A stretch of 64,000 nucleotides of DNA from Solirubrobacter soli DSM 22325 (GTDB taxonomy: Bacteria > Actinomycetota > Thermoleophilia > Solirubrobacterales > Solirubrobacteraceae), in NCBI RefSeq assembly GCF_000423665.1, contig NZ_AUIK01000027.1:62001-126000 (forward strand), in the 5' to 3' direction. The translations under genes and the position numbers were made by a program. Positions 40,632 through 57,502 of this stretch are shown piece after piece. The notes below the pieces were generated by a model. The model saw only the letters and a program-made list of their open reading frames with translations, was not told the origin of the DNA and did not search any database. Position 1 is the first letter of the stretch, and every line of letters begins with the position of its first letter.

Positions 40632-41273
40632 ATGGACGGCCTGGACATCCCGAAGCTGCGAGGCGTCACCCACGCCTACGCGTTCTGGTGCGCCCTGGTC
40701 GCCGCCGCGCTGCTGATCGCGTTCTCGCCCGGCGGGGTCCCGCGGGTCGCCGCGGCCGTCTACGGCGTCGGGCTGTGCGCGCTCTTCGGCGGCTCCGGCC
40801 TGTACCACCGGTGGCGCTGGCATCCGCGCTGGCGGCCGATCCTGCGCCGGATCGACCACTCGACGATCTACGTGTTCATCGCGGCCTGTTACACGCCGGT
40901 CGCGCTGCTGATCCTCGACGGCGCGACCAAGTGGGTGGTGTTGGGGGTCGTCTGGATCGGCGCGGCGCTGGGCGTCGTGTTCAGCGTCGCCTGGATCAAC
41001 GCGCCGCGGGCGCTGTGCTCGGCGACGTACGTCCTGCTCGGGTGGGTCGCGCTGCTCTGCGTGCCGCAGCTCAAGGACGCGCTGCCGCTGGCACCGCTGG
41101 TCCTGATCGCGTCCGGAGGCCTGCTCTACACCGCCGGCGCGGTGATCTTCGCGCTGGGTCGCCCGAACCCGTGGCCGCGCACCTTCGGCTTCCACGAGAT
41201 CTTCCACGTGTTCGTGATCCTGGCCGCTGTGGCACATTTTGTCGCCATGGCGGGCTGGATCGTGGTGTCATGA
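40632..41273 (+). CDS. Hemolysin III / PAQR family membrane protein
   Basis: The 213-residue protein has seven predicted helices and the family's metal-binding signature: GSGLYHRWRWHP, RRIDHSTIYVFIAACYTP, and the C-terminal FHEIFHVFVILAAVAHF. These histidines and aspartate coordinate zinc in PAQR proteins, suggesting a lipid-hydrolase role rather than a toxin. ATG 40632 is preferred over the upstream GTG at 40608; AATACT ends 6 nt before it. Confidence 0.88.
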   Translation: MDGLDIPKLRGVTHAYAFWCALVAAALLIAFSPGGVPRVAAAVYGVGLCALFGGSGLYHRWRWHPRWRPILRRIDHSTIYVFIAACYTPVALLILDGATKWVVLGVVWIGAALGVVFSVAWINAPRALCSATYVLLGWVALLCVPQLKDALPLAPLVLIASGGLLYTAGAVIFALGRPNPWPRTFGFHEIFHVFVILAAVAHFVAMAGWIVVS

Positions 41274-41337
41274 GGAGCCCGGCAACGGGCAGCGCGGCAC
41301 CGAGCGTGCGGTTTCGGGCATCCCGGGTGTGGTGTCG

Positions 41338-42033
41338 GTGAACACAGGCTGGGACGCGGAGTACGAGGGCGACGGCGGCGTGCCGTCGAGCTATCGGCAC
41401 GAGCCGTCGGGCGCGGTCGTCTGGGCGTTCTCGCGCGGGGTGGGCGGCGCGCGCGGCCTCGACGTGGGCTGCGGAACCGGCCGCAACACGCTCTACGCGG
41501 CGGCGCAGGGAGTGCGCATGACCGGGTTCGACCGCTCGCCCGCGGCGATCGAGCGCGCCCGCGAGCGCGGCGGCGACGCCGAGTTCCTCGTCCACGACCT
41601 GGCTGACGGGCTGCCGGTCGGAGACGGCTCGATCGACGTGCTGCTGGACATCTTCGTCTACAAGCACGTCGTCCACCCGGACGCGCGCCGGGAGTACCGC
41701 GACGAGATGCAGCGGGTGCTCGCTCCGGGCGGGCGGGTCGTGCTGCACCTCGCGGAGCCGACCGACGGCTACTACGGCTCCTGCCCGCTCCTCGGCGACG
41801 CCCACGCCTGGCCGCACGCGGTCGTCGACCCGGTCGTGGGCGTGGGCAGCGTGCTGTTCACGCTCGACGAGCTGCGCCACGAGTTCGCCGGGTTCGAGCT
41901 GGTCGACTCCCAGGCGCGGCGCAAGGACGGCGACATGCACGGCGCCGTCTACGAGCGTCACACGCTGACGGCGATCTTCACGACCTCGACGCCCGCGGCG
42001 CCGAGCACGTCCTCCCCGTCGAGCACCGCGTAG
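41338..42033 (+). CDS. Class I SAM methyltransferase
   Basis: The 231-residue protein has motif I GLDVGCGTGRNTLYAAAQG, GFDRSPAAIERARERG and LDIFVYKHVVHPDARREY, a typical small-molecule methyltransferase. It starts VNTGWDAEYEG at GTG 41338 (GTG 41332 is an alternative). Its last 76 nt overlap the convergent deaminase gene, where the C terminus becomes low-complexity (TSTPAAPSTSSPSSTA). The true function is unknown. Confidence 0.75.
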   Translation: MNTGWDAEYEGDGGVPSSYRHEPSGAVVWAFSRGVGGARGLDVGCGTGRNTLYAAAQGVRMTGFDRSPAAIERARERGGDAEFLVHDLADGLPVGDGSIDVLLDIFVYKHVVHPDARREYRDEMQRVLAPGGRVVLHLAEPTDGYYGSCPLLGDAHAWPHAVVDPVVGVGSVLFTLDELRHEFAGFELVDSQARRKDGDMHGAVYERHTLTAIFTTSTPAAPSTSSPSSTA

Positions 42034-42773
42034 CCCGTGCGGTAGTGCACGCGGGCGATGCCGCTCGCGGCGATCAGCTTCGCGCACGGCGGGCAGGGGA
42101 AGTCGGTCACGTAGATCTCCGCGCCCTGGGTCGACCGGCCGGCGCGGGCGGCGGCGGCGATCAGGCGCGCCTCCGCGTGCATCGCGGTGCTCAGCTCGAG
42201 GTGCACGCCCTTGAAGAAGTTCGACCGCGGGTCGCCGACGGCGTACGGGGACTGCGGGTGCGGGAGGTGCTCGTTGCGGGTCGCCTCGACGGTGCCGTCC
42301 GCGAAGCGGATCGCCGCGCCGACCTGGCGCCAGAAGTCGATGCTGTGCTCGGCCTGGGCCTCGGCCAGCGCCGGGAGGTCGTGCTCGTCGATGACGCGGT
42401 CCGGCCTCGGGGGCCTCAGCGCGACGACGCGCGGCTTGTCCCAGCGCAGGAACGCGGTGTCGTAGAGGACCTCGGCGCGTGGGAAGAACCGCTCGACGAC
42501 CTGGTAGCTGACGTCCTCGGCGGGCAGGATCAGTTGGGGGTTCTGCTCGGCGAGAGCGCGGGCGGCGGCTTCATCGAGGATATGGACCTCCAGGCCCCAC
42601 GCCGCGAGCGCCGGCGCGACCTCCTCGGGCGTCAGTGCGCGGATGTCCTTCGCCAGCGGGCGATAGTCCGTGTAGAGCTCCGGCCCGATCAGGTGGACCG
42701 GATGCGAGTGGGCGTGCAGGAAGCGCCGGTACCCCTCGTGGAGCACCGGGATGTACGCCACGACGGCCTTCAT
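41958..42773 (-). CDS. Deoxycytidylate deaminase-type protein with novel N-terminal extension
   Basis: The C-terminal 90 residues carry the zinc deaminase motifs MHAEARLIAAAARAG and DFPCPPCAKLIAASG, as in dCMP deaminases that make dUMP for thymidylate synthase. The first 150 or so residues (VVAYIPVLHEGYRRFLHAHS, LYTDYRPLAKDIRALTPEEV) match no domain I recognise. The gene overlaps the upstream nucleotidyltransferase gene by 4 nt. The setting beside thyA and folA supports a nucleotide role, but the extension may change the substrate. Confidence 0.75.
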   Translation of the reverse strand: MKAVVAYIPVLHEGYRRFLHAHSHPVHLIGPELYTDYRPLAKDIRALTPEEVAPALAAWGLEVHILDEAAARALAEQNPQLILPAEDVSYQVVERFFPRAEVLYDTAFLRWDKPRVVALRPPRPDRVIDEHDLPALAEAQAEHSIDFWRQVGAAIRFADGTVEATRNEHLPHPQSPYAVGDPRSNFFKGVHLELSTAMHAEARLIAAAARAGRSTQGAEIYVTDFPCPPCAKLIAASGIARVHYRTGYAVLDGEDVLGAAGVEVVKIAVSV

Positions 42774-43351
42774 GGCCGGCGCAGGATGTCGTCGATCAGC
42801 CCGGGCAGGACCTGGGCCAGCTTCGGGCCGAGGCGGTCGCCCATGTGCATGTACATCTGGCGGATACGTTCTGAGGTCGTGACCGACGCCTGACGCGAGA
42901 CGACCTCGATCCGCCCGACGACGGTCAGCAGCTCCTCCTGCTCGGCCTCGGTGTAGGAGTGGTCCTCGGTGAGCACGAGCACGTCCGGCGCGACGGCCTT
43001 GATCAGCGCCCAGCGCGGCTCGTCGTCGTCCTTGAGGTAGATCATGTCGACCGGGCGCTGGTAGGCCAGCATCTCCAGCCGCTCCTCCTGCGGGACCATC
43101 GGACGGTCGTCGCCCTTGCGGCGGCGGATCTTGGCGTCCGAGTCCACACCCACGACCAGGATCCCGCCGAACTCCTTGGCCCGCTGGAGGTACTTGACGT
43201 GCCCGAGGTGGATCAGGTCGAACGAGCCCGAAGTCAGCACGATCTTGTAGTCGAGCCCGCGCAGATGCGAGACCTTGCGCGTCACTTCGTCGAGCGTCGT
43301 GACCAGACGCTCCTCGAAATTCGCCTCGGTGCTGAGAATGCCGCCGCTCAT
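42770..43351 (-). CDS. HIGH-type nucleotidyltransferase (RfaE/TagD-like)
   Basis: The 193-residue protein has the cytidylyltransferase motif TSGSFDLIHLGHVKYLQRA and, later, a SVTTSERI segment in the place of the usual (S)TTxxI nucleotide loop. It would couple CTP or ATP to a phosphorylated small molecule. It is translated together with the deaminase downstream. TAAGGT (43369-43364) lies 12 nt before the ATG at 43351. Confidence 0.82.
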   Translation of the reverse strand: MSGGILSTEANFEERLVTTLDEVTRKVSHLRGLDYKIVLTSGSFDLIHLGHVKYLQRAKEFGGILVVGVDSDAKIRRRKGDDRPMVPQEERLEMLAYQRPVDMIYLKDDDEPRWALIKAVAPDVLVLTEDHSYTEAEQEELLTVVGRIEVVSRQASVTTSERIRQMYMHMGDRLGPKLAQVLPGLIDDILRRP

Positions 43352-43410
43352 AGCGAAGGAATGACCTTACAAAGCCGAGGTCCGACCGGCGCCTTCGCCA
43401 GACTGGATCA

Positions 43411-44319
43411 GTGCCCAATTACCGACCCTTCGCCGCGCGCCGCCCGAGCACGCAGTACCAGGACATGCTCCGGACGATCCGCGACGACGGGGTCCACGTG
43501 CACACCAAGCAGGGCGAGGACGCGCTGGCCGTCGCGGGCGTGCAGATGCGCTTCCCGATGGCCCACGGAGCCGCGGTGATCACCGAGCGGTCGATCAAGG
43601 GCTTCGTCAACAAGGCGATCGGCGAGCTGTGCGCGTTCATCAACGGCGCCCGCACGCTCGACGAGCTGCGCGAGTTCGGCTGCGACTGGTGGGACGCGTG
43701 GGCGACGCCCGAGAAGTCCGGCTCGCGTGGGTTGCAGGCCGGGGACCTCGGCCCGGGCTCCTACGGGCACGCGTTCCACAACTTCACCACCGACCTCGAC
43801 GGCGACGACCCCGGGTTCGACCAGCTCCCCCACCTGATCAAGAAGCTGAAGGACCTGCCGCTGGACCGCACGGCCGTGATGAGTCCGTGGATCCCGCAGG
43901 CCAACCATCGCGAGGCGGGCGTCAAGTCGCGCAATACGATCGCTCCCTGCCACGGCTGGATCCACGCGCTGGTTCTGGACGACAAGCTGCACCTGATCCA
44001 CAACCAGCGCTCGGGCGACACGCCGATCGGCGTGCCGTCCAACATGGCGCAGTACACGGCGCTCGGCCTGATGATCGAGCACCTGATCGGCTACGAGTTC
44101 GTGGAATACGTCCACTGGATCCAGTACGCGCACATCTACGTGAACCAGCTGGAAGCGGTCGACGAGATGCTGGGTCGCGAGCCGCGCCGCCTCCCCACGC
44201 TGTCGCTGTCCGAGGCGGGCAAGCGCGTCACCGACATCCACGACTTCCGCGCCGAGCACTTCGAGCTCACCGACTACGACCCGCATCCCGCGATCAAGGG
44301 CATCCCGGTGCTGACGTGA
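43411..44319 (+). CDS. thyA: Thymidylate synthase ThyA
   Basis: The 302-residue protein keeps the key thymidylate synthase residues: the catalytic cysteine in APCHGWIH, the phosphate and pterin site in HNQRSGDTPIGVP, the uracil-binding asparagine in PSNMAQYTAL, and YAHIYVNQ in place of the usual DxHxYxNH. It is clearly diverged from E. coli ThyA. It converts dUMP to dTMP and makes dihydrofolate, which the next gene reduces. GTG 43411 follows a weak -10 (CAGACT) by 6 nt. Confidence 0.85.
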   Translation: MPNYRPFAARRPSTQYQDMLRTIRDDGVHVHTKQGEDALAVAGVQMRFPMAHGAAVITERSIKGFVNKAIGELCAFINGARTLDELREFGCDWWDAWATPEKSGSRGLQAGDLGPGSYGHAFHNFTTDLDGDDPGFDQLPHLIKKLKDLPLDRTAVMSPWIPQANHREAGVKSRNTIAPCHGWIHALVLDDKLHLIHNQRSGDTPIGVPSNMAQYTALGLMIEHLIGYEFVEYVHWIQYAHIYVNQLEAVDEMLGREPRRLPTLSLSEAGKRVTDIHDFRAEHFELTDYDPHPAIKGIPVLT

Positions 44320-44789
44320 TCGCCTGCGTCGTCGCGCATTCCAAGAACCGCGTGATCGGCCGCGACGGCGATCTGCCGTGGCACCTGCCCGCCGACATGC
44401 GGCGCTTCCGCGAGCTGACGAGCGGCCACGCCGTCGTGATGGGCCGCAAGACATACGAGTCGCTGCCGGATCGCTTCCGGCCGCTCCCGAACCGCCGCAA
44501 CCTGGTGCTGAGCCGTGACCCGGGCTTCGTCGCGCCGGGCGCCGAGGTCTTCCCGGACCTCGCGAGCGCGCTCGCGGCCTGCGACGGCGACTGCTTCGTG
44601 ATCGGCGGCGGCACGACCTATGAGCAGGCGCTCGCGGTCGCCGACCGCGTCTACGCCACCGAGATCGACGCGCACGTCGAGGGCGACACGTTCTTCCCCG
44701 AATTGGGAGGCTGGCGGGCGGTCGAGGTCTCGGAGCCTGAGGCCGAGAACGGCCACAGCTTCAGCTTCATCACCTACGAGCGTGGCTGA
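44316..44789 (+). CDS. folA: Dihydrofolate reductase
   Basis: The 157-residue enzyme shows the substrate-binding NRVIGRDGDLPWHLPADMRR with its catalytic aspartate, the NADPH-binding VVMGRKTYESLP and FVIGGGTTYEQAL, and the C-terminal FFPELGGWRAVEV. GTG 44316 overlaps thyA by 4 nt, the usual pairing that regenerates tetrahydrofolate. Confidence 0.94.
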   Translation: MIACVVAHSKNRVIGRDGDLPWHLPADMRRFRELTSGHAVVMGRKTYESLPDRFRPLPNRRNLVLSRDPGFVAPGAEVFPDLASALAACDGDCFVIGGGTTYEQALAVADRVYATEIDAHVEGDTFFPELGGWRAVEVSEPEAENGHSFSFITYERG

Positions 44790-45225
44790 CCTCTACTACC
44801 TCGACGCCGCCCGCCACGACGACCAGTCCGAGCGGATGCGCGAGCACGAGGCCGCCGGCCGCTGCGTCTTCTGCCCCGAGCACGTCGCGACGTACCAGAC
44901 CAACCCGGTCGAGTACACCGGCGAGCACTGGTACTACAAGCGCAACGACTGGCCGTACGCCGGCACCGTCGCCCACTACCTGATCGTTCCGCTGCGCCAC
45001 GTCGTCGCCTTCGACGAGTTGCCGGACGAGGCGGGTGCCGAGCTGTGGGCGATCAAGCGCCGCCTGAAGGCCCAGCTGGACCCGCTCGCCACCGCCACCG
45101 TCGAGCGCTCGGGCGACATGCGCCTCAACGGCGGCAGCGTCGCCCACCTGCACGTGCACTTCGTGGCGCTCGGCCCGGATCCGGTCAAGACCGTGCGCTT
45201 CCGGGTCAGCGAGCGAGCCGGCTAG
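44782..45225 (+). CDS. HIT family hydrolase
   Basis: The 147-residue protein has the histidine triad in NGGSVAHLHVHFVALG and the upstream HYLIVPLRHVVAFDEL. A CVFCPEH segment resembles the zinc-binding start of HIT proteins. These enzymes cleave nucleotide conjugates such as AMP-lysine or dinucleoside polyphosphates. GTG 44782 overlaps folA by 8 nt, so it is probably part of the thyA operon. Confidence 0.85.
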   Translation: MADLYYLDAARHDDQSERMREHEAAGRCVFCPEHVATYQTNPVEYTGEHWYYKRNDWPYAGTVAHYLIVPLRHVVAFDELPDEAGAELWAIKRRLKAQLDPLATATVERSGDMRLNGGSVAHLHVHFVALGPDPVKTVRFRVSERAG

Positions 45226-47269: not shown

Positions 47270-47299
47270 ATGATGACTTCAAAGGCGATGTTGCGATGA
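47270..47299 (+). CDS. 9-residue leader peptide ORF
   Basis: ATG 47270 opens a 9-codon frame encoding MMTSKAMLR. Its TGA overlaps the ATG of the next gene (ATGA at 47296-47299). It sits exactly where a leaderless transcript would start, so ribosomes would translate it first and then reinitiate. It could tune expression of the downstream system; conservation would be the test. Confidence 0.4.
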   Translation: MMTSKAMLR

Positions 47300-47607
47300 C
47301 GGAGATCGCGCGATTCACGATCGACGAAGCAGGCGGCGACGTCCTCGTCGAGGTCGACAAGACCGCAGGGCTCCAGCGCGTCGCGCGTGGAGACGACGGG
47401 ATCTACCGAGCGACCGAGCGCGTCGACGCCGCTCTCGCAGCGGTGACGCCGGCGGCGCGCCGTGTGCTCGACGCAGTCAAGGAGATCGCGCCCTCGTCGA
47501 CCGAGGTCGAGTTCGGGATCAAGCTCACGGCGGAAGCCGGCGCGATCCTGGCGAAGGCGTCGGGAGAAGCGCACTTCACCGTGAAGATGTCCTGGGAGCA
47601 CAAATAG
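47296..47607 (+). CDS. Trypco1-type small protein (CU044_2847 family)
   Basis: The 103-residue protein resembles the trypsin-co-occurring domain 1 family: an opening strand (IARFTIDEAGGDVLVEVDKT), a central helix (LAAVTPAARRVLDAVKEIAP), the conserved EVEFGIKLTAEAG, and a final strand (GEAHFTVKMSWEH). Such proteins sit beside trypsin-like and NTPase components of bacterial conflict systems and probably act as adaptors or substrates of the protease. The next gene encodes that protease. Family assignment is by pattern memory. Confidence 0.75.
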   Translation: MTEIARFTIDEAGGDVLVEVDKTAGLQRVARGDDGIYRATERVDAALAAVTPAARRVLDAVKEIAPSSTEVEFGIKLTAEAGAILAKASGEAHFTVKMSWEHK

Positions 47608-47617
47608 AGCTCCCCCG

Positions 47618-50600
47618 TTGAAGGACTGGCTCTCCCGCGGCCTCGCTCGCGTCACGTCCGTCGAGGGCTCCGTGAAGGGTGCCGGCGTGCTGCTCGGCAC
47701 CCGGCACGTCTTGACGTGTGCTCACGTTGTGGCTGCAGCGCTCAACTGTGAGAGCGATGTCTTGGACGCCCCAAAGGGCCAGCTGAGCGTGGAGTTTCCC
47801 GCGTCGGACACGGGCCCTGGGTTCAGTGCAACGGTCGTTCCCGACGCCTGGTTTGGCGTCGACCCGGCGGGCGGTGGGGATGTCGCGGTGCTCGAGCTCG
47901 ATGCCGACGTACCCTGTGACTGCGCTCAACCGCCGGTCCTGCGCACCGCGGGACGAATCGGCAGCCAGTTCCACGCTGTGGGGTTCCCTTATGGGCTCGG
48001 CAAAGGCGTCGAGGCACGCGGATCGATCCGCGGAGGGCTCGGTCCTGGCTGGCAGTGGAGGCAACTCGAGATCGCTGAGCGGAGCTATCCGATCGAGCCC
48101 GGATTCAGCGGCACCCCGGTCTGGGATGAACAAGCGGCTGCCGTCGTCGGACTCGTCGCGCTCCAGTATCGCGAGGATGACGCTCCGCCGATCGCGTTCA
48201 TGATCCCAACGGAAGTGATCGCTCGACTGTGGCCAGGTCTCGACGATCACCTCGGTTGGCGCGTGCGGTTCGAGCCGCGCGACCGTGTCGACCATTGGAG
48301 TCCGCGAGCTCGGGGCGTCACGTTCGACAGCGATCCACGGCAGCTGTTCACGGGGCGCGAGCACGCATTGCGATCGGTGGCGGATTGGCTCGCGAAGCCC
48401 GACGGCCAGGCCCGCCTTGTCGTCGGCGGGCCGGGCTCGGGGAAGTCCTCGATCCTCGCTCGCGTCGTGATGGCCGCGGACACCGACGCGCCGTTGCCCC
48501 TGATCGACTCCGATCCTGGAACCGCGGTCGCCCCCGGCGCGATCTCGCTTGCCATCGTCGGCCGACACGACACAAATGTCGAGAGCGTGGCCGGTGAGAT
48601 CGCTCGCTGGACCGACCTCGACGCACAGACGCCGAGCGAGGTGGTCAGTGCCCTCGTGCGGCGCAAAGCCGACGCGCCGCCACCGACGATCGTCCTCGAC
48701 GCGCTGGACGAGACGCGCAACCCCACCGGGATCGCGAGCAGCCTGCTCCGGCCGCTCGCCCGCGAAGGCGCCGCCAACCTCCTGATCGGCGTCCGGAGCA
48801 CGGAGTACGAGGACTCGCCCCCAGAGCTCCTCCGCGGGGTCGCGCAAGAGATCGACCTCGACGGGCAGTTCTCCGACCCGCGCGACCTTGCGCTCTACGT
48901 CTCGCACGTCCTGCACGAGTCCGGTCCGAGCGGCTATCGCGACGACCCTGAGAGGACGGCCGCGCTCGCTGAACGCGTCGCCGAACGTGCCGCCCCGTCG
49001 TTTCTCGTCGCCCAGCTCGTCTGCCGGTCGCTCTGCGAACAGGACGTCGTTCTGGATTCGATGCCCGAGACGTTCCCCGACGACGTCGGAGCGGCGATGC
49101 ACGAGTACATCAGAGCTGTGGCCGAACACCACGTCGAAGGCGAAGAGGACGTCGAATCGACGGTCAGGCGGATGCGCGACCTCCTGGCCGCGCTGGCCTT
49201 CGCGAAAGGCGGCGGGCTTCCGTCGGAAGGGCCGGTGTGGCCGACGATCGCAGGCGCGATCTCGAAGCGCGACTACACCCCGAAGGATGTCCGTTGGCTG
49301 ATCGACTCACGCGCGCGGTCGCTGCTCCAGATCCACGAGATCGATGGGCGCGAAGGCGTGCGGCTGTTCCATGCCGCGCTGGCCGCTCACGTGGCGCCGA
49401 AGAACCGCGGGAACGCCGAGGCACGGATCGTACGTCGACTGAGCAAGCTCGCGACCGAGATGCCGCGCGACGAGGTCGATGCCTACGTCGAGGCGCATCT
49501 GTCAAGCCACGTAGCCGCCGAGCCCGTCCCGGATTGGAGCGCGGTGGCGCAAGAGCGTGTGCTCGAGCGGCTGGATCCGAACGCTGTCGCGATCGACGCG
49601 ACGAAGGCGGCGTCGGCGGGCTCGCTTCCGCGGGAGATCGCAGCCGTCGTCGCTACGCGGCATCTGCTCTCGTCGAGCTCGCGAAGCGACCGTGACGGCC
49701 TCCGGCAACTCGGCCTCGCCCGCTCGGCCGGCGATCGCCGGTTCTCACCCGCCACCCAAAGTGGCGCGTGGGGCATCCGCTCGGCGAGCCTCAGGCGTCA
49801 CCCGACGCATACGGTGCTGGCGCTGAAGATGCGGGCGGACTCGATCGCCACCGCGACGGTGGCGGGCGCCGAGGTGCTCGTCGCCGGGTGTGCGGACGGC
49901 CAAGTCAGGCTCTGGCATCCATTGACCCTCGACGCGCTCGCCGAGCCGATTCCCGCCCCCGGAGGGAAGCCGGTGCGCGTGTGCTCCTGCGATACGGGAG
50001 GCGGCTCATGGATCGCCGCGAGCGGAGGTGATGGGTTCATCGAGGTGCACGATCCGATGAACGGCCAGCTCCGGCAGCGGTTCGGGACCGGCAGCGCTGA
50101 GCGCATCCGCGCCCTGGCCGCGTTCACCGATTCCGAAGGGACCATCCGGATCGTCGCGGCCGGAGATGACCACGGCGTACGTGTCTGGGACCCCGCGGCC
50201 GAGGTGTCCGTTGCCACCCTCGTCGGGCACAAGGGCGTGATCCGCGCCCTGTCGGTCCTCACCGATCGCCGTGGTCACCGCGTGATCGCGACCGCTGGAG
50301 ACGATGGTCGGATCCGGCTGTTCAGGCCCGACACGCCGGCGCCTGCGCCAGTCGTGCTCCAAGGCCACCGCGATTGGGTGACCGCGATTGCGACCTACGA
50401 CGCCGGCGACGGCGAGCCGCGGCTCGCGTCCGTGAGCGAGGACGGGACGCTGCGCCTGTGGAACGTCAGCACGGGCGGACAACTGAGAACGAGTGAGCCA
50501 CTACCGAGCAAACCCGTCGCCCTCGCGGCGACCCACGCGGTCGGCGGGGCGGTGCGGTTGGTCACCGGACACGCCGACGGAGTGCTCCGTGTCTGGGATC

Positions 50601-51697
50601 CGCAGACGCTGGCGCAGGTCGGCCTGGATCTCACAGGTCACATCAGCGGCGTCGCCTCGATGGTTGCGTTCTCCGACGCACGCGGCCGCGCTCTGGTCGC
50701 GAGCGCCGGAGCTGATCGGACAATCCGGATCTGGGACGTGGGCGCGCCGCCGATGGGACGCGAGTTGCCGAGCGGAGACACTGAGCATGTGGATGCGATC
50801 GCACTCACCGCTGATCCCGAACCACATGCCGTCGTCGCTGGTCCAGACGGCACGCTTCGCGTCTGGGACGCCCGCACAGGTCAGCGGCTCGGCACGCCGG
50901 TGCGCCGGCATTCCGCTCGCGTTCGCGCGATCGCCTCCTATCGCGACAGTCACGGGACGGCGCGGCTAGCGACCGCGGGTGACGACGAGGCGATCCAGCT
51001 GTGGACCACCGCGGGAGGACTGGAGCCCGGACCGCTGCTGCGCGGCCATACGCGGCCGGTGCGGGCACTCGCGCTCGTCGGGAGCGCAGACGCGCGGCTG
51101 CTCGCATCGGGCAGCGAGGACGGGACGATTCGCTTCTGGGACCCGGAAACCGGGGACCGCGCGGCGAGCGAACCATTGGTCGGTTCAGGTCCGGTCCGTG
51201 GCCTCGCCTCGTTGACGGCCGCCGATGGTGCGGCGATGCTCGCGGCCGTCGGGCATGGCCGATCGGTACGGATCTGGAGCCTTGCCGAAGGCACGCACGT
51301 CGAGCTGCCCGCCCTGCACGAGAACTGGCTGATGGCGGTGTGCGTCGGTCAGGGTCCTGCTGGGCCGGTACTGGTGAGCGCGGGAGACGATGAGATGGTC
51401 CGACTCTGGGACCCGGCGACGATGACGCCGGTCGCAGACCCGCTCGTGGGTCATACGGGGCCGATCCGCGCGCTGTCGGTGCTTCGGACAGATATGGGCG
51501 ACACCGTGATCGTGAGCGGGGGCGAGGACCGCACGCTCCGGATCTGGGACCTCGCCCGTGCACGTCAGCTGCGGCGGATACCGCTGGATGTTCCGGTGAC
51601 TGCGTTGTCCGCGATCGACGGCGGGGTGCTGGTCGGCACAGACGAGGGACACCTCGTCATCGATCTGTCAGAACCCTCCACCCTGGCCGCCGACTGA
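47618..51697 (+). CDS. Trypsin-NACHT/STAND-WD40 conflict-system protein
   Basis: This 1359-residue protein has three parts. Residues 1-210 are a trypsin-like protease with H36 (LTCAHVV), D88 (GGGDVAVLEL) and S164 (PGFSGTPVW) as the triad. Residues about 245-700 are a STAND NTPase with Walker A GGPGSGKSS (K276), Walker B TIVLDALDE (357-365) and a helical region. Residues 732-1355 form about 14 WD40 repeats, such as LASGSEDGTIRFWDPETG, enough for two propellers. Ligand binding by the propellers would trigger NTPase oligomerisation and proteolysis. The start is TTG 47618. Its end overlaps the convergent gene by 30 nt. Confidence 0.88.
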   Translation: MKDWLSRGLARVTSVEGSVKGAGVLLGTRHVLTCAHVVAAALNCESDVLDAPKGQLSVEFPASDTGPGFSATVVPDAWFGVDPAGGGDVAVLELDADVPCDCAQPPVLRTAGRIGSQFHAVGFPYGLGKGVEARGSIRGGLGPGWQWRQLEIAERSYPIEPGFSGTPVWDEQAAAVVGLVALQYREDDAPPIAFMIPTEVIARLWPGLDDHLGWRVRFEPRDRVDHWSPRARGVTFDSDPRQLFTGREHALRSVADWLAKPDGQARLVVGGPGSGKSSILARVVMAADTDAPLPLIDSDPGTAVAPGAISLAIVGRHDTNVESVAGEIARWTDLDAQTPSEVVSALVRRKADAPPPTIVLDALDETRNPTGIASSLLRPLAREGAANLLIGVRSTEYEDSPPELLRGVAQEIDLDGQFSDPRDLALYVSHVLHESGPSGYRDDPERTAALAERVAERAAPSFLVAQLVCRSLCEQDVVLDSMPETFPDDVGAAMHEYIRAVAEHHVEGEEDVESTVRRMRDLLAALAFAKGGGLPSEGPVWPTIAGAISKRDYTPKDVRWLIDSRARSLLQIHEIDGREGVRLFHAALAAHVAPKNRGNAEARIVRRLSKLATEMPRDEVDAYVEAHLSSHVAAEPVPDWSAVAQERVLERLDPNAVAIDATKAASAGSLPREIAAVVATRHLLSSSSRSDRDGLRQLGLARSAGDRRFSPATQSGAWGIRSASLRRHPTHTVLALKMRADSIATATVAGAEVLVAGCADGQVRLWHPLTLDALAEPIPAPGGKPVRVCSCDTGGGSWIAASGGDGFIEVHDPMNGQLRQRFGTGSAERIRALAAFTDSEGTIRIVAAGDDHGVRVWDPAAEVSVATLVGHKGVIRALSVLTDRRGHRVIATAGDDGRIRLFRPDTPAPAPVVLQGHRDWVTAIATYDAGDGEPRLASVSEDGTLRLWNVSTGGQLRTSEPLPSKPVALAATHAVGGAVRLVTGHADGVLRVWDPQTLAQVGLDLTGHISGVASMVAFSDARGRALVASAGADRTIRIWDVGAPPMGRELPSGDTEHVDAIALTADPEPHAVVAGPDGTLRVWDARTGQRLGTPVRRHSARVRAIASYRDSHGTARLATAGDDEAIQLWTTAGGLEPGPLLRGHTRPVRALALVGSADARLLASGSEDGTIRFWDPETGDRAASEPLVGSGPVRGLASLTAADGAAMLAAVGHGRSVRIWSLAEGTHVELPALHENWLMAVCVGQGPAGPVLVSAGDDEMVRLWDPATMTPVADPLVGHTGPIRALSVLRTDMGDTVIVSGGEDRTLRIWDLARARQLRRIPLDVPVTALSAIDGGVLVGTDEGHLVIDLSEPSTLAAD

Positions 51698-54241
51698 GCC
51701 GAACCCGCTGCCCAAGTCGCGGTAGAAGCGTCGATACAGCCGATCATCGTCGACGCGCGCCAGCTTGAGACGCGCGGTCTCCGGCAACGACGCTCGATCG
51801 ACCGGCCGCGTGGAGTACTTCGAGTTGAGGTCCGGCGCGACGACGTACTCATTTCCGGCGGTGACGTCCCACTCGAGACGCCCGAACGGACGCGCGTAGT
51901 AGGGCTCCTTCGGCCGACTGGTGATCGCGACCGCGCGCAACGCGACACCTTGACGCCACGCAAGCTGGACGATGCGATGGTTCCCGTCACACACGACGAA
52001 ATCTCGCGCACTGCGCTCGTCGTCGAAGTCGACGGGATGGAGCGCTTCGACGATCGGCGGAGTCAAAGAGACCAGAGCCGGTGCAGCACCCTTGCGGACA
52101 CGGATGTACCCCCACGGGTCCCAGCCGTCCCTCCGGGCGGGCTCCAGAACCGAGTCTTCGAGCTGTTGCGCTCGCACGAGTCCCGCGGTGACGACGTAGC
52201 GCTGAACCGGCCGAAGGAAGCCGAGCACGTCGGCGCCGTCCGGGTCGTACTGGCGACCGTCCTCGTGGGCGTCGGCATCGACCACGAGGATCGCTCCGCG
52301 AGGGTCGGCTCCGTCGACGAACACGAGTTCCTGTCGCACAAGGAACACAGGGCGGATGACAGCGTCGGGATACGCAGGGCCGGTGAGATCGGAGTCTTCG
52401 TCGAACGTGACCGTTCGGAGCGCGCCAACGGTGCTCGCCGGTTTTCCGTCGGGCCGCATCTGGCCGTTCTCGGCGAACGGATAGCGGTCGACCGGTTCGA
52501 AGATGTCCCCCGCCGCCTTCTGGAGCACGAGCTCAGGCGGGAACCCGCCTTTCGGTAGCCGCAGGTCATCGAGGATCTCGTCGATCCAGGTCATCACATC
52601 GGCATTGCGCGCCTGGATGGCCGGGCATTCCTTCCAACGGGGCTTGCCATCGTCGCCGAGCGGAAACCACACGGTTCCCAGTCGAACCTTCTCCGCTCGA
52701 GCACGCTGTGAGCGATCGGGCGCGTCGAGCAACTCGACCTCGGGCTCCCAGCGCAGCCCGGCGCCTCCCGATTCGAGCGCCGTCATGGTCACGCGACAGT
52801 CGTCGATCTCGGGCTGGCCGATCCGCTCGATGCCCCGTAGCCAATGGACGATCTTGCCCACCCGCTCGTCGTCCTGCGCGATGCGCCGATCGACCAACGG
52901 CAGGAGAGTTACGAGCCGGTACTGGTACTCGCTGACGGTGCCGGTGGTCGGTGAGATCTTGCGGATCGTGCGGGTCGCGATCTCACGGATCTGGTCCTCC
53001 CACACGCGGTCCTGCTCGAGACCGCCGTTGTCGAGGATCTCGTCGACGGCCTCCTCGAACTGCTGTGCGCGCACAGCGCGGGCGGCGTCGTCCGCCTGCT
53101 CGACCGACTGGCGCATGACGTCATCTCGCAGGTGTTCGAGGAGCAGGCGGACGTTGGTGAACGCCGGCAGGAGCAACGCGTTCCAACTCGCGATTGACGA
53201 CTCCGTGATCGGCGCGTGGTGGCTGAGGAGCAGGTCGTGACCACCGTCTTCCCGCTCCCGCAGAAGGAGCAGCAAGTTGTACGGAAGTCGTCGTGCGACC
53301 GGCAGATCGGGCAGGCCCCCTTCCGCATCGCTCAGTGGTACGTAGCCGGAAGACGTCCACGTGCGCTCGACGTGCTCGGCAAACCCGTCGGCGCCGGTTG
53401 GTGCGTCGTTGAGCAAGCGCCCGACCGCCGTCCGCAGGCGCCGCTCTGCGCTCGTGATCCGAGATGCCGAGATCAGCGGGCGGAGCACCTGAGCCGTCGG
53501 CGCACCCGCATGGTCTGACCCAAGGTCGTAGCGGAACGCGATCTCAGCCTCGCCCTTCCACAGGTTCAGGCGCACGCGCGCCATTCCGGGCGTCCCCTCC
53601 CCGGCCCGGAACGTCGGGGCGGAGATCAACGAGATCGGCGCCGCGTCCCGACCGGGGCGAAGCATGTCGGTGCCTGCGATCGCGACGATGTCCCTGCGCT
53701 GGGCGTGCCGATGGACGACCAACGCCATCCGCAGGTTGCGGCACTGCTCGATCATCGCCTCAGCATCCGGATCGGCCGACAGCAGGTCGGCGTTGGTCAC
53801 GCCGATCACGTGCACTGGAGTCGTACGTCCGATCGTGGTAGCAAGCTCGCGTACCTGCGCGCCGGGGTCAGTCTGCCCCTGCGACGCGGCGTCGAGTCCG
53901 ATCAAGGCGATCACGGCCGCGGGGTCGAGCGCCGTCGACTGCCGGACACCGAACACGGACGCGCCTGCGGGGGGAGTGCAGAACAGCCGCCCGCTCGCGC
54001 TCTCGGTCGCGAACCGACGCAGTCCGGCGTTCCGATCCACCGCGTCAGGTCCGACCGCGACGAGCACGTCGGCATCCGACTCGAACGGCCTCCGAAGAAA
54101 CCACGACCGTTGGACCAGCCGGACCTCGGCGGCCGCGGAATCGCTCTCGTCCGCTCTTATCTCACCGGTCGGCTCGCTGAGGACGTCGATCGTGAACCAC
54201 GGCCGCGTCACGTCCCGGTCGACCCAGACGATCTCGGTCAC
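51668..54241 (-). CDS. 857-residue protein with C-terminal ParB-like motif
   Basis: I do not recognise this protein as a whole. The C-terminal quarter has FVVCDGNHRIVQLAWRQG (DGNHR at 752-756), the core motif of ParB/sulfiredoxin-like domains, which in relatives bind or hydrolyse nucleotides. The N-terminal 350 residues alternate strands and helices (VLVAVGPDAVDRNAGLRRF, TPVHVIGVTNADLLSADP), and the middle is helical. No membrane segment or signal is present. GTG 54241 lies 1 nt after the ParB-like gene's stop, so it is cotranslated with it. Confidence 0.7.
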   Translation of the reverse strand: MTEIVWVDRDVTRPWFTIDVLSEPTGEIRADESDSAAAEVRLVQRSWFLRRPFESDADVLVAVGPDAVDRNAGLRRFATESASGRLFCTPPAGASVFGVRQSTALDPAAVIALIGLDAASQGQTDPGAQVRELATTIGRTTPVHVIGVTNADLLSADPDAEAMIEQCRNLRMALVVHRHAQRRDIVAIAGTDMLRPGRDAAPISLISAPTFRAGEGTPGMARVRLNLWKGEAEIAFRYDLGSDHAGAPTAQVLRPLISASRITSAERRLRTAVGRLLNDAPTGADGFAEHVERTWTSSGYVPLSDAEGGLPDLPVARRLPYNLLLLLREREDGGHDLLLSHHAPITESSIASWNALLLPAFTNVRLLLEHLRDDVMRQSVEQADDAARAVRAQQFEEAVDEILDNGGLEQDRVWEDQIREIATRTIRKISPTTGTVSEYQYRLVTLLPLVDRRIAQDDERVGKIVHWLRGIERIGQPEIDDCRVTMTALESGGAGLRWEPEVELLDAPDRSQRARAEKVRLGTVWFPLGDDGKPRWKECPAIQARNADVMTWIDEILDDLRLPKGGFPPELVLQKAAGDIFEPVDRYPFAENGQMRPDGKPASTVGALRTVTFDEDSDLTGPAYPDAVIRPVFLVRQELVFVDGADPRGAILVVDADAHEDGRQYDPDGADVLGFLRPVQRYVVTAGLVRAQQLEDSVLEPARRDGWDPWGYIRVRKGAAPALVSLTPPIVEALHPVDFDDERSARDFVVCDGNHRIVQLAWRQGVALRAVAITSRPKEPYYARPFGRLEWDVTAGNEYVVAPDLNSKYSTRPVDRASLPETARLKLARVDDDRLYRRFYRDLGSGFGSVGGQGGGF

Positions 54242-54242
54242 G

Positions 54243-54818
54243 TCAGGCCGTCAGGAAGCTCGGGTTGGAGTCCTTGCGCTCCTTCTGCACTCCCGGGAAG
54301 ACGGCGTTGAAGTCGCGGAAGAGCGCCTTGTAGTTGCCGGGGATCCGGTACTCCTTCTTCTGGAAGAGGTCCGGGAGCTCCTCCATCTCGGTCACGCCGG
54401 CCCAGCCGTCCGGGAGGGCGAGGGCGTAGTACGGGTGTGAAGCGCCGTCGACGGTTACGACGTTGATGGGCGAGCCCGCGAGCTTGGCCGCGTAGACGCG
54501 GTGGATGCCGTCATTGATCAGCCAGACGTCGCGGCCGTCGGGCTCCGTGGAGCGCTCGACGACCGGTGGCAGCAGAGGGATGCCGTCCAGGTACACGCCA
54601 CCGTCGAGGGAGAAGACGTCGACCGCCTCGGAGAGCTTGAGGATGCGGCGGACGGTCGGCATCAGCACGTAGCGCTGGGCGGGCGTCAGGTCATCGGGGT
54701 CGAACGTCTGCACCTGCAGCGTGGCGTGCTCGTAGACCCGCGCGCCGTCGAAGCCCACGAGGCGGGTCTCGCGCAGGCGGGCGAGGAGTTCCTCAGTGTT
54801 GATCGGTTCGACGTGCAC
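54243..54818 (-). CDS. ParB-like domain protein (191 residues)
   Basis: The protein carries WLINDGIHRVYAAKLAG with DGIHR at 103-107, the ParB/sulfiredoxin-like core, followed by a C-terminal segment KKEYRIPGNYKALFRDFN. It has no helix-turn-helix, so it is not a chromosome-partition ParB. GTG 54818 overlaps the thymidylate-synthase-like gene by 26 nt and its stop is 1 nt from the next start. The set is evidently one operon. A nucleotide-handling activity is inferred from the fold. Confidence 0.68.
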   Translation of the reverse strand: MHVEPINTEELLARLRETRLVGFDGARVYEHATLQVQTFDPDDLTPAQRYVLMPTVRRILKLSEAVDVFSLDGGVYLDGIPLLPPVVERSTEPDGRDVWLINDGIHRVYAAKLAGSPINVVTVDGASHPYYALALPDGWAGVTEMEELPDLFQKKEYRIPGNYKALFRDFNAVFPGVQKERKDSNPSFLTA

Positions 54819-56250
54819 GCAGCAGCTGTTCCTTGGCGGCGAGCTCGCGGCCGAGCCAGAGACCGTGGGACGGGAGGCTCACGGCCATGTCGGCGGCGAT
54901 CGCGTGGGCGATCCTATCGGCCCGATCGGACCGGTACTGCTTGATCAGGGCGCCTTCGAAGCGGTGCTCGGCGAGGATCTCGTCGCCGTCGAGCGACACC
55001 ACGAAGTAGCCGTTCGGGTCCTCGTCCAACCCGCCTCGCGGGCGGCCGACGCGGGCGGCCGCGGCGGGGTAGCGGTCCGAGGCGGGATCGGCGCCGAGCG
55101 AGTGGCTGATCACGGTGATCGGGCCGATCGGCATCTCGACCGCGGCGGCGACGTGGCGCTGGATCGCCAGCAGCCCGTAGACGTTCAGCAGCCAGGCGGT
55201 CAGCAGGTTGTGGGCGCGATAGGTGGCGGTCAGCGTCAGGGCGCCCTGCGAGCGGCGGAAGAAGAGCGTGACCAGGCACGGGTTGCTGTGATCGCCGGGC
55301 AGGTCGTACGGGGTGTCCCAGAGCGAGATGTAGGCGTCGCGGGACTCCTCATTCGCACGCAGGCGCTCGATCGCCACGTCGAGCGTGTCCAGCCCGAAGT
55401 GCTCGCCGAGCCGGTTGCCGTAGGTGTAGTCGGCGCCGGCGAGGTCGGGGTCGAACATCCGGCGCTGGTAGGCGTGCAGCGCACCGAGATCGAAGCCGCG
55501 CTCCCGGAGCGCCTGCTCGTCGTCCTCGCGCGGCGCGGTGATCACGACCTTGGCGTTGAGCAGCTCCAGCCGGCCGCCCTTGACCGCGACGGGATGGCCG
55601 AAGCGCAGCGTCCGCTCGACGAGCTCGTCCCAGGCCTCGACGGGTGTGCGGCGGATCACCTGGTGGCCGGCGACCTCGGAGGGCGCGAACGCGTAGTCGT
55701 CGGGCAGCGCCGGGGGGATCTCGACCCGCACCCGCTCCTCGTCGCCGTCCGCGACCTGCAGCTCCGCCAGCGTGGCGAGCAGCGTCTCCTCCAGTCCGGG
55801 CGTCGAGAGCTTGCCGAGCCACCGGAAGCTCAGGCGCCGGCGCAGCCGCTCGGCGTCGAAGCCCTCGGTGACCGGGAACGTGCGCGACGTGCCGACCACC
55901 CGCCGCAGGGGCGCACCGAGCAGCTCGGTCTCCTCCAGCCCGTCCCGCAGGAACGCGTCGATCTCGTCGCACGTCGGGAGGTCGAGATCGGCGCCCAACG
56001 CGATCAGATGACGCACCTGCGGGTTGTAGAGCAGGTTGCAGAACATCGCGAACATGCCGTCGCCGTAGAGGTTGGCGGCGACGGCGATGCGGCTGCGGGC
56101 GGGATCGAGCACCTCGGACGGCAGCTTGCGCTCGACGGTGCGCCACGGCGACCAGAGGGTGATCAGCCCGACGTCGCCGTGCGGGTTGATCACCCGCAGG
56201 CGATCAGCGTGATACAGCGCGACGAAGGGCTTAGTTGCCGTTGACGGCAT
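54793..56250 (-). CDS. Thymidylate-synthase-like protein with MtrA-like N-terminal domain
   Basis: Residues about 300-420 align with archaeal-type thymidylate synthases: catalytic-cysteine region SNPCLVTLFFRR (C325), then TYRAHNLLTAWLLNVYGLLA. R345 and N356 match the phosphate and uracil ligands. The usual serine and aspartate of RSxD are alanine and asparagine here (RAHN, 345-348). The N-terminal region (RIAVAANLYGDGMFAMFCNL, VRHLIALGADLDLP) resembles the MtrA/DUF4346-like domain found in front of some such enzymes. A changed substrate or reaction is likely. It overlaps hflX by 20 nt. Confidence 0.72.
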   Translation of the reverse strand: MPSTATKPFVALYHADRLRVINPHGDVGLITLWSPWRTVERKLPSEVLDPARSRIAVAANLYGDGMFAMFCNLLYNPQVRHLIALGADLDLPTCDEIDAFLRDGLEETELLGAPLRRVVGTSRTFPVTEGFDAERLRRRLSFRWLGKLSTPGLEETLLATLAELQVADGDEERVRVEIPPALPDDYAFAPSEVAGHQVIRRTPVEAWDELVERTLRFGHPVAVKGGRLELLNAKVVITAPREDDEQALRERGFDLGALHAYQRRMFDPDLAGADYTYGNRLGEHFGLDTLDVAIERLRANEESRDAYISLWDTPYDLPGDHSNPCLVTLFFRRSQGALTLTATYRAHNLLTAWLLNVYGLLAIQRHVAAAVEMPIGPITVISHSLGADPASDRYPAAAARVGRPRGGLDEDPNGYFVVSLDGDEILAEHRFEGALIKQYRSDRADRIAHAIAADMAVSLPSHGLWLGRELAAKEQLLRARRTDQH

Positions 56251-57502
56251 AGCGGCCGTAGCGCTCGGCGACGACCGTTGGGATGCGGGCGGTGATGCGG
56301 ACGCCGTCCGGGGTGTCCTCGCGCTCCATCTCGCCCGCGAGGTGGTGGAGCTCGTTGATCAGCCCGCCCTGGGAGAACGGGACGAGCAGCTCGACGTCCG
56401 AGAGGGTCTTCTCGAACTCGGCCACGATCCGCTCGCGCAGGTCCTCCAGCCCTTCGCCGGTGACCGCGGAGACGAGCGCGGCGTCGGGGTGGCGGAAGCT
56501 CAGCTCGCGGCGGCGCTCGTCGTCGAGGATGTCGGCTTTGTTGAGGACGAGCATCCGGGGACTCGAGCCCGCGTCGATCTCCTCCAGCACGTCCTCCACG
56601 GCCCGTGTCATGGCGACGAGCTCCTCCTCGTCGGCGGAGGCGTCGACGACGTGCAGCACGAGGTCGGCGAGCTTGGTCTCCTCCAGCGTCGCCGCGAACG
56701 CGTCCACGAGCTGATGCGGCAGCTTGCGGATGAAGCCGACGGTGTCGGTCATCAGGAACGTGCGGCCGTGGAGCAGGAGCGTGCGGGTCGTCGGGTCCAA
56801 CGTGTGGAACAGGCGGTCGCGGACGCCGACCTCTGAGCCGGTGAGCGCGTTGAGCAGCGTCGACTTGCCGGCGTTGGTGTAGCCCGCGAGCGCGACGTTG
56901 GGCAGGTGCGCCCGCTCACGCTCGGCGCGCTGGGTCGCGCGGGTGGACTTGACCTGCTCGAGCCGGCGGCGCAGGACCGTGATGCGGTCGCGCGCCAGGC
57001 GGCGGTCGGTCTCGATCTGCGACTCGCCGGGGCCGCGGGTGCCGATGCCGCCCACGCCGCGGCCGGCGCCGAGACGCTCCAAGTGCGTCCACAGGCCGCG
57101 CATGCGGGCCATGTTGTATTCGAGCTGGGCCAGCTCGACCTGCATCTTGCCCTCGGCCGTGTGGGCGTGGCCGGCGAAGATGTCGAGGATCACCGCGGTG
57201 CGGTCGAGCACCGGGACGTCGAGCGCGGCCTCGAGGTTGCGCTGCTGGCGCGGGGTCAGCTCGTCGTCGGCGACGACGAGGTTCGCGTCGGCAGGTTTGA
57301 GGAGCGCCTTGAGCTCCTCGACCTTGCCCGAGCCGAGGTAGTGGTTCGGATGCGGCTTGTCGAGCTTCTGGCTGAGCGCGCCGACGGTCGCCACACCGGC
57401 GGTGCGCAGCAGCTCCTTGAGCTCCGCGAGGTCTTCATGTTCCTGCGTGGCCGCGATGCAATACGCGCGCTGCCTGGCGCGGCCATTTCCCGATTGTTCC
57501 AA
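56231..57502 (-). CDS. hflX: GTPase HflX
   Basis: HflX is a ribosome-associated GTPase that splits stalled ribosomes. The 423-residue protein has the N-terminal HflX domain (LVVADDELTPRQQRNLEAAL), the glycine-rich GAGRGVGGIGTRGPGESQIE linker, and G motifs GYTNAGKSTLLNALTG (G1), DTVGFIRKLPHQLV (G3) and NKADIL (G4). TTG 57502 follows the -10 element TAGAAT by 8 nt. It is the first gene of a transcript that probably continues into the thymidylate-synthase-like and ParB-like genes. Confidence 0.94.
   Translation of the reverse strand: MEQSGNGRARQRAYCIAATQEHEDLAELKELLRTAGVATVGALSQKLDKPHPNHYLGSGKVEELKALLKPADANLVVADDELTPRQQRNLEAALDVPVLDRTAVILDIFAGHAHTAEGKMQVELAQLEYNMARMRGLWTHLERLGAGRGVGGIGTRGPGESQIETDRRLARDRITVLRRRLEQVKSTRATQRAERERAHLPNVALAGYTNAGKSTLLNALTGSEVGVRDRLFHTLDPTTRTLLLHGRTFLMTDTVGFIRKLPHQLVDAFAATLEETKLADLVLHVVDASADEEELVAMTRAVEDVLEEIDAGSSPRMLVLNKADILDDERRRELSFRHPDAALVSAVTGEGLEDLRERIVAEFEKTLSDVELLVPFSQGGLINELHHLAGEMEREDTPDGVRITARIPTVVAERYGRYAVNGN

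Follow-up and report, generated by a model that had tools for sequence, protein, structure and literature searches.

The window analysed here, a stretch of 64,000 nucleotides from Solirubrobacter soli DSM 22325 (contig NZ_AUIK01000027.1, positions 62,001 to 126,000), carries on its minus strand three closely packed genes, which encode a thymidylate-synthase-like protein (TSL) of 485 residues, a ParB-fold protein of 191 residues (called ParB below) and a protein of 857 residues. The conserved core is the pair of TSL and ParB, to which a HAD-fold enzyme is often added. In our opinion, this pair, with or without the HAD-fold enzyme, is predicted to be a thymidylate synthase system of a third kind, converting deoxyuridine monophosphate (dUMP) into deoxythymidine monophosphate (dTMP), and the probability of this reading is put at about 60%. 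Phyletic, gene-order and residue evidence makes it preferable to the hypermodification of DNA and to a nucleotide-depleting weapon. Gene content, conservation, co-inheritance and a complementary distribution of thymidylate synthases were observed in the sets of genomes searched.

TSL (54793..56250, minus strand, ATG start) is composed of an MtrA-like domain, a thymidylate synthase domain and a DUF4346 pterin-binding domain. ParB (54243..54818, minus strand, GTG start) is a Parb-CE protein co-inherited with TSL, and the 857-residue protein (51668..54241, minus strand, GTG start), which has a C-terminal Parb-CE domain, is an optional accessory. A preliminary description of this DNA placed three minus-strand genes of these lengths at 51668-56250, and the open reading frames agree with it: TSL and ParB overlap by 26 nucleotides, and a gap of one nucleotide separates ParB from the 857-residue protein. 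Conserved homologues of each of the three occur in other genomes, so these are real genes.

The occurrence of TSL was followed by a contig scan and by genome searches. The contig scan gave 15 TSL loci from Actinobacteria, Alphaproteobacteria, Eremiobacterota and Abditibacteriota; it used an alignment of three TSL sequences and two short motifs, one of which was required, so that the range of TSL beyond the genomes searched whole is a lower bound. Both approaches together yielded 17 distinct TSL genomes, nine actinobacterial and eight others, with duplicates counted once (L024 is the contig of L018 and L034 that of L017; G796, G797 and G807 correspond to G765, G784 and G763). In the searches of two families with PF00303, TSLs scored only 26-37 bits, and weaker TSLs may escape at this level. 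The frameshifted TSL of genome G748 was missed by the PF00303 family search and was included from a separate search; it was left out of the TSL alignments (A1, A4, A7) and of the tree. Its open frame (L017 11133-12838, same contig as L034) is split in two, either by a sequencing error or by decay.

The ParB profile matched in 16 of the 17 TSL genomes and in none of six relatives without TSL, which had been picked for lacking TSL and were not a random draw. In three carriers (G802, G804, G805) ParB lies away from TSL. At the TSL locus itself ParB was found in 13 of 17 cases, the HAD-fold enzyme in 10 and both in nine; the HAD-fold enzyme is missing there in the window and in L026, L031, L034, L035, L036 and L038. 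The identity matrices of TSL and ParB correlate with r = 0.90 over 15 genomes, a value reached by 0 of 5000 permutations, and shared descent alone can explain a part of this correlation. The 857-residue protein, in contrast, was found with 4 of the 17 TSLs, so the trio as such is not the conserved unit.

ParB itself matches the family PF24392 (Parb-CE; E 1e-22, 80.8 bits against a gathering cut-off of 23) and no other Pfam family, a ParA partner and parS sites not having been searched for. In a phylum sample of 396 genomes PF24392 had a match in one, the window's own genome. Profile searches of the PDB with the alignments of ParB and of the 857-residue protein found nothing useful. The ParB of Phycicoccus (L027 13330-14178), encoded directly after a ThyA gene, has about 57 extra residues inserted between its two conserved parts and was left out of the ParB alignment A6. 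In the HAD-fold enzyme, motif I reads DxG instead of DxD in 11 of 11 copies, two of them read by eye (for example, L024 11484-12191 and L028 11575-12228); therefore, it should not be taken for granted that the enzyme works as an ordinary phosphatase. In G802 the HAD-fold enzyme and ParB form a pair at a separate locus, away from TSL.

The distribution of TSL was compared with that of the known thymidylate synthases, tallied by searches with PF00303 (ThyA) and PF02511 (ThyX), thymidine salvage being outside the scope of this tally. Neither canonical ThyA nor ThyX was detected in seven of the eight non-actinobacterial carriers (canonical ThyA in 0/8, ThyX in 1/8, namely G806). The family of G801 comprises 82 genomes: ThyX was found in 56 of them and canonical ThyA in another 22, three (G800, G801, G803) have TSL alone, one genome (G855) has none of them, and two of the three types were never found together in one genome. 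The chance that all three TSL carriers fall among the four genomes lacking both ThyA and ThyX is 4.5e-5, or 1.8e-3 if two independent events are counted. Additional weak or partial PF00303 matches exist in this family (G836, G870, G875, G879); with the TSL profile those of the first three reach 17-39 bits versus 629-792 for true TSLs, and that of G879 gives no match. Dihydrofolate reductase (DHFR) is present in G800 and G801 and was not found in G803, a metagenome bin. Genome G855, which has no PF00303, PF02511 or DHFR match, is incomplete or uses another route.

Gene order also connects TSL with dUMP. L032 and L033, both from Alphaproteobacteria, have a deaminase gene for deoxycytidine triphosphate (dCTP) immediately upstream of TSL, and a ComEB-like gene for deoxycytidine monophosphate (dCMP) deaminase, ParB and TSL stand in a row in L036 from Abditibacteriota (the ComEB-like match has 104 bits, below the model cut-off of 219). 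TSL adjoins dCTP- or dCMP-deaminase genes, in this way, in three genomes of two phyla. Both deaminases lead to dUMP.

In the actinobacterial window, TSL has a neighbour cluster of five genes at 41958-45225. It comprises genes for a deoxycytidylate-deaminase-like protein (41958..42773, minus strand), an HldE-like nucleotidyltransferase (42770..43351, minus strand), a divergent ThyA-type thymidylate synthase (43411..44319, plus strand, about 200 bits to PF00303), DHFR (44316..44789, plus strand, start approximate) and a HIT-family protein (44836..45225, plus strand, start approximate). With tblastn, 15 other loci with this linked ThyA type were examined: all five genes are present in 11, three are cut by contig ends (L121, L123, L125) and in L027 no DHFR was seen. 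The cluster adjoins TSL in the window and in L025, L026, L027 and L028; in G630 it lies on the same contig about 365 kb off, whereas G762, G763 and G748 have the two on different contigs. Among the 146 genomes of the window's family, the linked ThyA type occurs in 15 and TSL in seven, all seven being within the 15 (hypergeometric probability 2.7e-8, uncorrected for kinship); a partial PF00303 match of G761 is not of the linked type and was kept outside this count. ThyX is absent from 6 of the 7 TSL carriers of the family versus 13 of the 139 other genomes. In eight genomes the linked ThyA was found without TSL, four of them with ThyX and four without, and the cluster is conserved as a unit in members of the family both with and without TSL. 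A class I methyltransferase gene (41239..42033, plus strand, start uncertain), whose membership in the system is doubtful, adjoins the linked cluster in the window, and related methyltransferase genes adjoin TSL in L016, L018 and L025.

The structure of TSL was considered domain by domain. Pfam assigns PF00303 to residues 203-379 (E 7e-6) and PF14251 (PterinBD-DUF4346) to residues 410-480 (E 8e-13), and each of these families matches 14 of the 15 members of the TSL alignment. Of the NCBIfam models, the methanogen-type TIGR03283 matches best, with 100.8 bits, which is below its curated cut-off of 174.55. The AlphaFold model of TSL is of fair quality (predicted local distance difference test, pLDDT, 79.5; predicted template modelling score, pTM, 0.48), and the packing of domains is therefore unsure. 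A Foldseek search with this model found thymidylate synthases at E about 1e-10.

When the TSL rows were aligned to one canonical ThyA (L065), the catalytic Cys, two phosphate-binding Arg residues and the Asn that selects dUMP over dCMP were found to be kept in 15 of 15. The folate-side residues of canonical ThyA are Asp169, His207 and Tyr209 (E. coli numbering). In this remote alignment, the folate-site Asp is replaced by Asn in all 15 TSL rows; less surely, the second His and the Tyr are not kept either, and the HELLWFLKG stretch of ThyA stands opposite a gap. Because Cys, Arg and Asn are retained while the folate-site Asp is changed and HELLWFLKG is gapped, TSL appears, from the alignment, to resemble ThyA in its nucleotide half and not in its cofactor half.

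The N-terminal domain is without a Pfam match, and its profile matches solved MtrA chains (8q3v, E 5.5e-6). The cobalt ligand of MtrA is His84, as given in the available text of PMC4915002, and no conserved His was seen at the equivalent place in the TSL alignment. Cobalamin-dependent thymidylate synthesis by TSL was rejected on this ground.

In the window's family, several relatives of its host (L008, L010, L104-L106 and L109) contain short stand-alone thymidylate synthases of the methanogen type, of about 215-290 residues and in unrelated context, which score 29-44 bits with the TSL profile.

The third member of the trio, the 857-residue protein, matches PF24392 at residues 676-792 (E 1e-6, 29.1 bits against a cut-off of 23). 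The DGNHR motif noticed earlier was found at residues 752-756, with D752, G753, H755 and R756 conserved. The first description of the locus as a thymidylate-synthase-like enzyme with two ParB-like proteins, belonging to nucleotide metabolism, proved right. Residues 1-675 matched no Pfam family, no search having been aimed at VMAP or vWA-MoxR genes, and an AlphaFold model built from three sequences (pLDDT 40) was not used. The protein accompanies at least 4 of the 17 TSLs (the window, G630, G762 and L028 of Actinokineospora). This number is a minimum, since one family alone, that of the window, was searched whole (3 of 146 genomes), elsewhere the flanks of TSL were covered, and in some cases TSL lies near the end of its contig.

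In all four cases the 857-residue protein is accompanied by a gene for an NTPase-WD40 protein, convergent and adjacent in three and upstream of TSL in L028. In the window this gene (47618..51697, plus strand) encodes a trypsin-like peptidase, a P-loop NTPase region, the P-loop being read by eye, and a WD40 propeller; it overlaps the 857-residue protein gene tail-to-tail by 30 nucleotides and is preceded by a Pfam-assigned Trypco1 (trypsin-co-occurring) gene (47296..47607, plus strand). The N-terminal part of the protein varies. Trypsin and Trypco1 are over the cut-offs in the window; L028 has a caspase over the cut-off and an adjoining alpha/beta-hydrolase-like gene (E 4e-4) under the cut-offs; L016 has a caspase match under the cut-off and an LCAT-like, lipase-like gene; in L018 the similarity to the window's protein covers the trypsin region. 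According to Kaur et al. 2020 (PMC7159879), two pairings occur in VMAP systems: trypsin is combined with Trypco1 or Trypco2, and caspase is combined with an alpha/beta hydrolase. As these pairings, one of which is present at the window locus, agree with that report, the 857-residue and NTPase-WD40 proteins are predicted to be a conflict module. Next to the TSL locus of G630 stands a gene (L016 14945-16567) which, on inspection by eye, resembles that of a type I restriction methylase, and this locus may, for that reason, lie in a defence island.

Taking these data together, the following course of events may be proposed. Neighbouring deaminases would supply dUMP, as gene order suggests, and the thymidylate synthase domain, to judge from its conserved residues, would bind it and attack via Cys325 as in ThyA. 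On the side of the C1 donor TSL would differ from ThyA, since all the sequences have an altered folate-site residue and carry MtrA-like and DUF4346 domains in addition. ParB, whose co-inheritance with TSL was observed, may bind a nucleotide and be needed by TSL as an activator, a kinase-like partner or a cofactor-handling enzyme. In the window's own host, an actinobacterium, TSL would be a second thymidylate enzyme near the ThyA-DHFR cluster, and the 857-residue protein with the peptidase-NTPase-WD40 protein might possibly act as an optional guard sensing disturbances of the dTMP supply via its ParB domain. A fuller version of the proposal is offered only tentatively: a thymidylate synthase site joined to a cofactor module of the MtrA/DUF4346 type, with an obligate nucleotide-binding ParB-fold partner and often a HAD-fold enzyme without the usual second Asp, might make dTMP by a chemistry unlike that of ThyA and ThyX. 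Some actinobacteria might, in addition, have this supply wired via a ParB-tagged 857-residue sensor to a self-destructive peptidase.

A number of observations weigh against a third thymidylate synthase. A ThyA-type gene was found in each of the nine actinobacterial carriers, among them the window's host, and ThyX is present in G806 and in the actinobacterial G630 and G799. Four relatives of the window's host (G515, G759, G729, G771) have the ThyA type, and neither TSL nor ThyX was found in them; together with the ThyA of all nine carriers this indicates that TSL is not needed for dTMP in these actinobacteria. The co-present ThyA weakens the case there, also for the window. Of the seven carriers in which both ThyA and ThyX are missing, five are metagenome bins by record title, and the absence may therefore be a gap. 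The TSLs of the two others, G800 and G801, are 93% identical and so count as a single event. A second, short gene similar to thymidylate synthases (222 residues, 24 bits) occurs in G800, and the bin G808 (1.3 Mb) has TSL and no ParB match by profile. The short gene of G800 adjoins a B12-binding radical SAM gene, and the place (L137 944-2995) looks like a locus for a modified nucleoside or natural product.

Hypermodification of DNA bases was suggested in the preliminary description. In its present form, this explanation has TSL modify C5, either as a dUMP hydroxymethylase or by some other reaction, with ParB and the HAD-fold enzyme carrying the product to a modified pyrimidine in DNA or in a small molecule. 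The Foldseek matches of TSL also include hydroxymethylases of cytidine monophosphate and dCMP, which is a further point against plain dTMP synthesis, and the actinobacterial carriers already own ThyA. ParB-like enzymes and thymidylate synthase homologues are known in DNA modification or defence (DpdB; a thymidylate synthase domain and a 5-hydroxymethyluracil kinase domain in validated E. coli defence units). Such an enzyme would, however, leave seven of the eight non-actinobacterial carriers without a detectable thymidylate synthase. Clustering of the neighbours at 17 loci, with rough gene calling and partial annotation, gave, apart from the families described here, none that recurs in three or more loci. 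Three scans of viral contigs, with the phage-record collection outside the search, were negative for relatives of TSL, of ParB and of the 857-residue protein. The dUMP-yielding neighbours, the dUMP-type Asn and the carriers lacking ThyA and ThyX all point to plain dTMP synthesis, and we consider modification unlikely. A phage or plasmid origin of the trio was set aside in view of the same viral scans and of tblastn against plasmids, which gave one weak match, from Nonomuraea, to the thymidylate synthase part of TSL.

The same description also considered a conflict system that depletes or alters nucleotides; the trio and the peptidase-NTPase-WD40 protein would then be an anti-invader module. 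A predicted conflict element is indeed attached, and the trypsin-Trypco1 pair of the window, the caspase/hydrolase-type pairs of L028 and L016 (partly under the cut-offs) and the restriction methylase-like neighbour in L016 speak for it. This element, however, is made of the 857-residue protein and its NTPase-WD40 neighbour and is optional, whereas TSL is kept in seven carriers without ThyA or ThyX; besides, TSL, ParB and the 857-residue protein gave no match to any PADLOC model at E 0.1. A nucleotide-directed weapon is, in our estimation, distinctly improbable. An ordinary explanation sees in TSL the archaeal, methanogen-type ThyA copied into bacteria, and regards the ParB and HAD genes as loosely related neighbours. 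It agrees with the TIGR03283 match and is hard to reconcile with the score below the cut-off, the two extra domains, the co-occurrence of ParB even when unlinked and the separate HAD-ParB pair of G802, which make it very improbable.

Other features of the locus may be described briefly. The start of TSL overlaps by 20 nucleotides the stop of an hflX-like gene (56231-57502) located upstream, and an hflX-like gene is directly upstream of TSL in G748 (L017/L034) too. A promoter scan found none, and a terminator scan found five versus 1.5 expected.

If the proposal of a third thymidylate synthase is true, it would explain genomes without detectable ThyA or ThyX, add a new type of enzyme to folate-linked metabolism and give a ParB-fold protein a metabolic role. 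In the available texts of PMC3352284 and PMC9931769, described thymidylate synthases are of two types, ThyA and ThyX. No description of a TSL-ParB system was found in open-access literature, subscription papers and preprints being outside the search, in line with the preliminary description, whose author knew of no described system of such composition.

Comparison with known systems shows partial likenesses. VMAP and vWA-MoxR systems share with the window and with L028 the peptidase pairings mentioned above, and they differ in that the words ParB and thymidylate are absent from the main text of PMC7159879. A phage-defence unit reported with DefensePredictor in 2026 likewise contains a thymidylate synthase domain; among the domains of the figure legend are a dNMP kinase, a 5hmdU kinase and NMAD, and "ParB" is absent from the main text (PMC13092281). 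DpdB of the Dpd DNA-modification system, likened by description only, is a ParB-like protein beside a base-handling enzyme, but this partner is, in the available text of PMC12839542, a TGT homologue and not a thymidylate synthase. MtrA, the cobalamin subunit of methyl-H4MPT:CoM methyltransferase, resembles the N-terminal domain of TSL, which lacks a conserved counterpart of its His84. ThyX provides an alternative route to dTMP, and TSL stands where ThyX is absent in all three carriers of the family of G801; ThyX belongs, however, to an unrelated family, and no PF02511 match appeared in the Pfam scan of TSL. The methanogen thymidylate synthase TIGR03283 is covered by a model of 201 positions, compared with 485 residues and two more domains in TSL. 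Finally, ThyA shares with TSL the thymidylate synthase fold, the catalytic Cys, the two Arg residues and the dUMP-type Asn, and TSL is set apart from it by the replaced folate-site Asp, the MtrA-like N-terminal domain, the DUF4346 C-terminal domain and the ParB partner.

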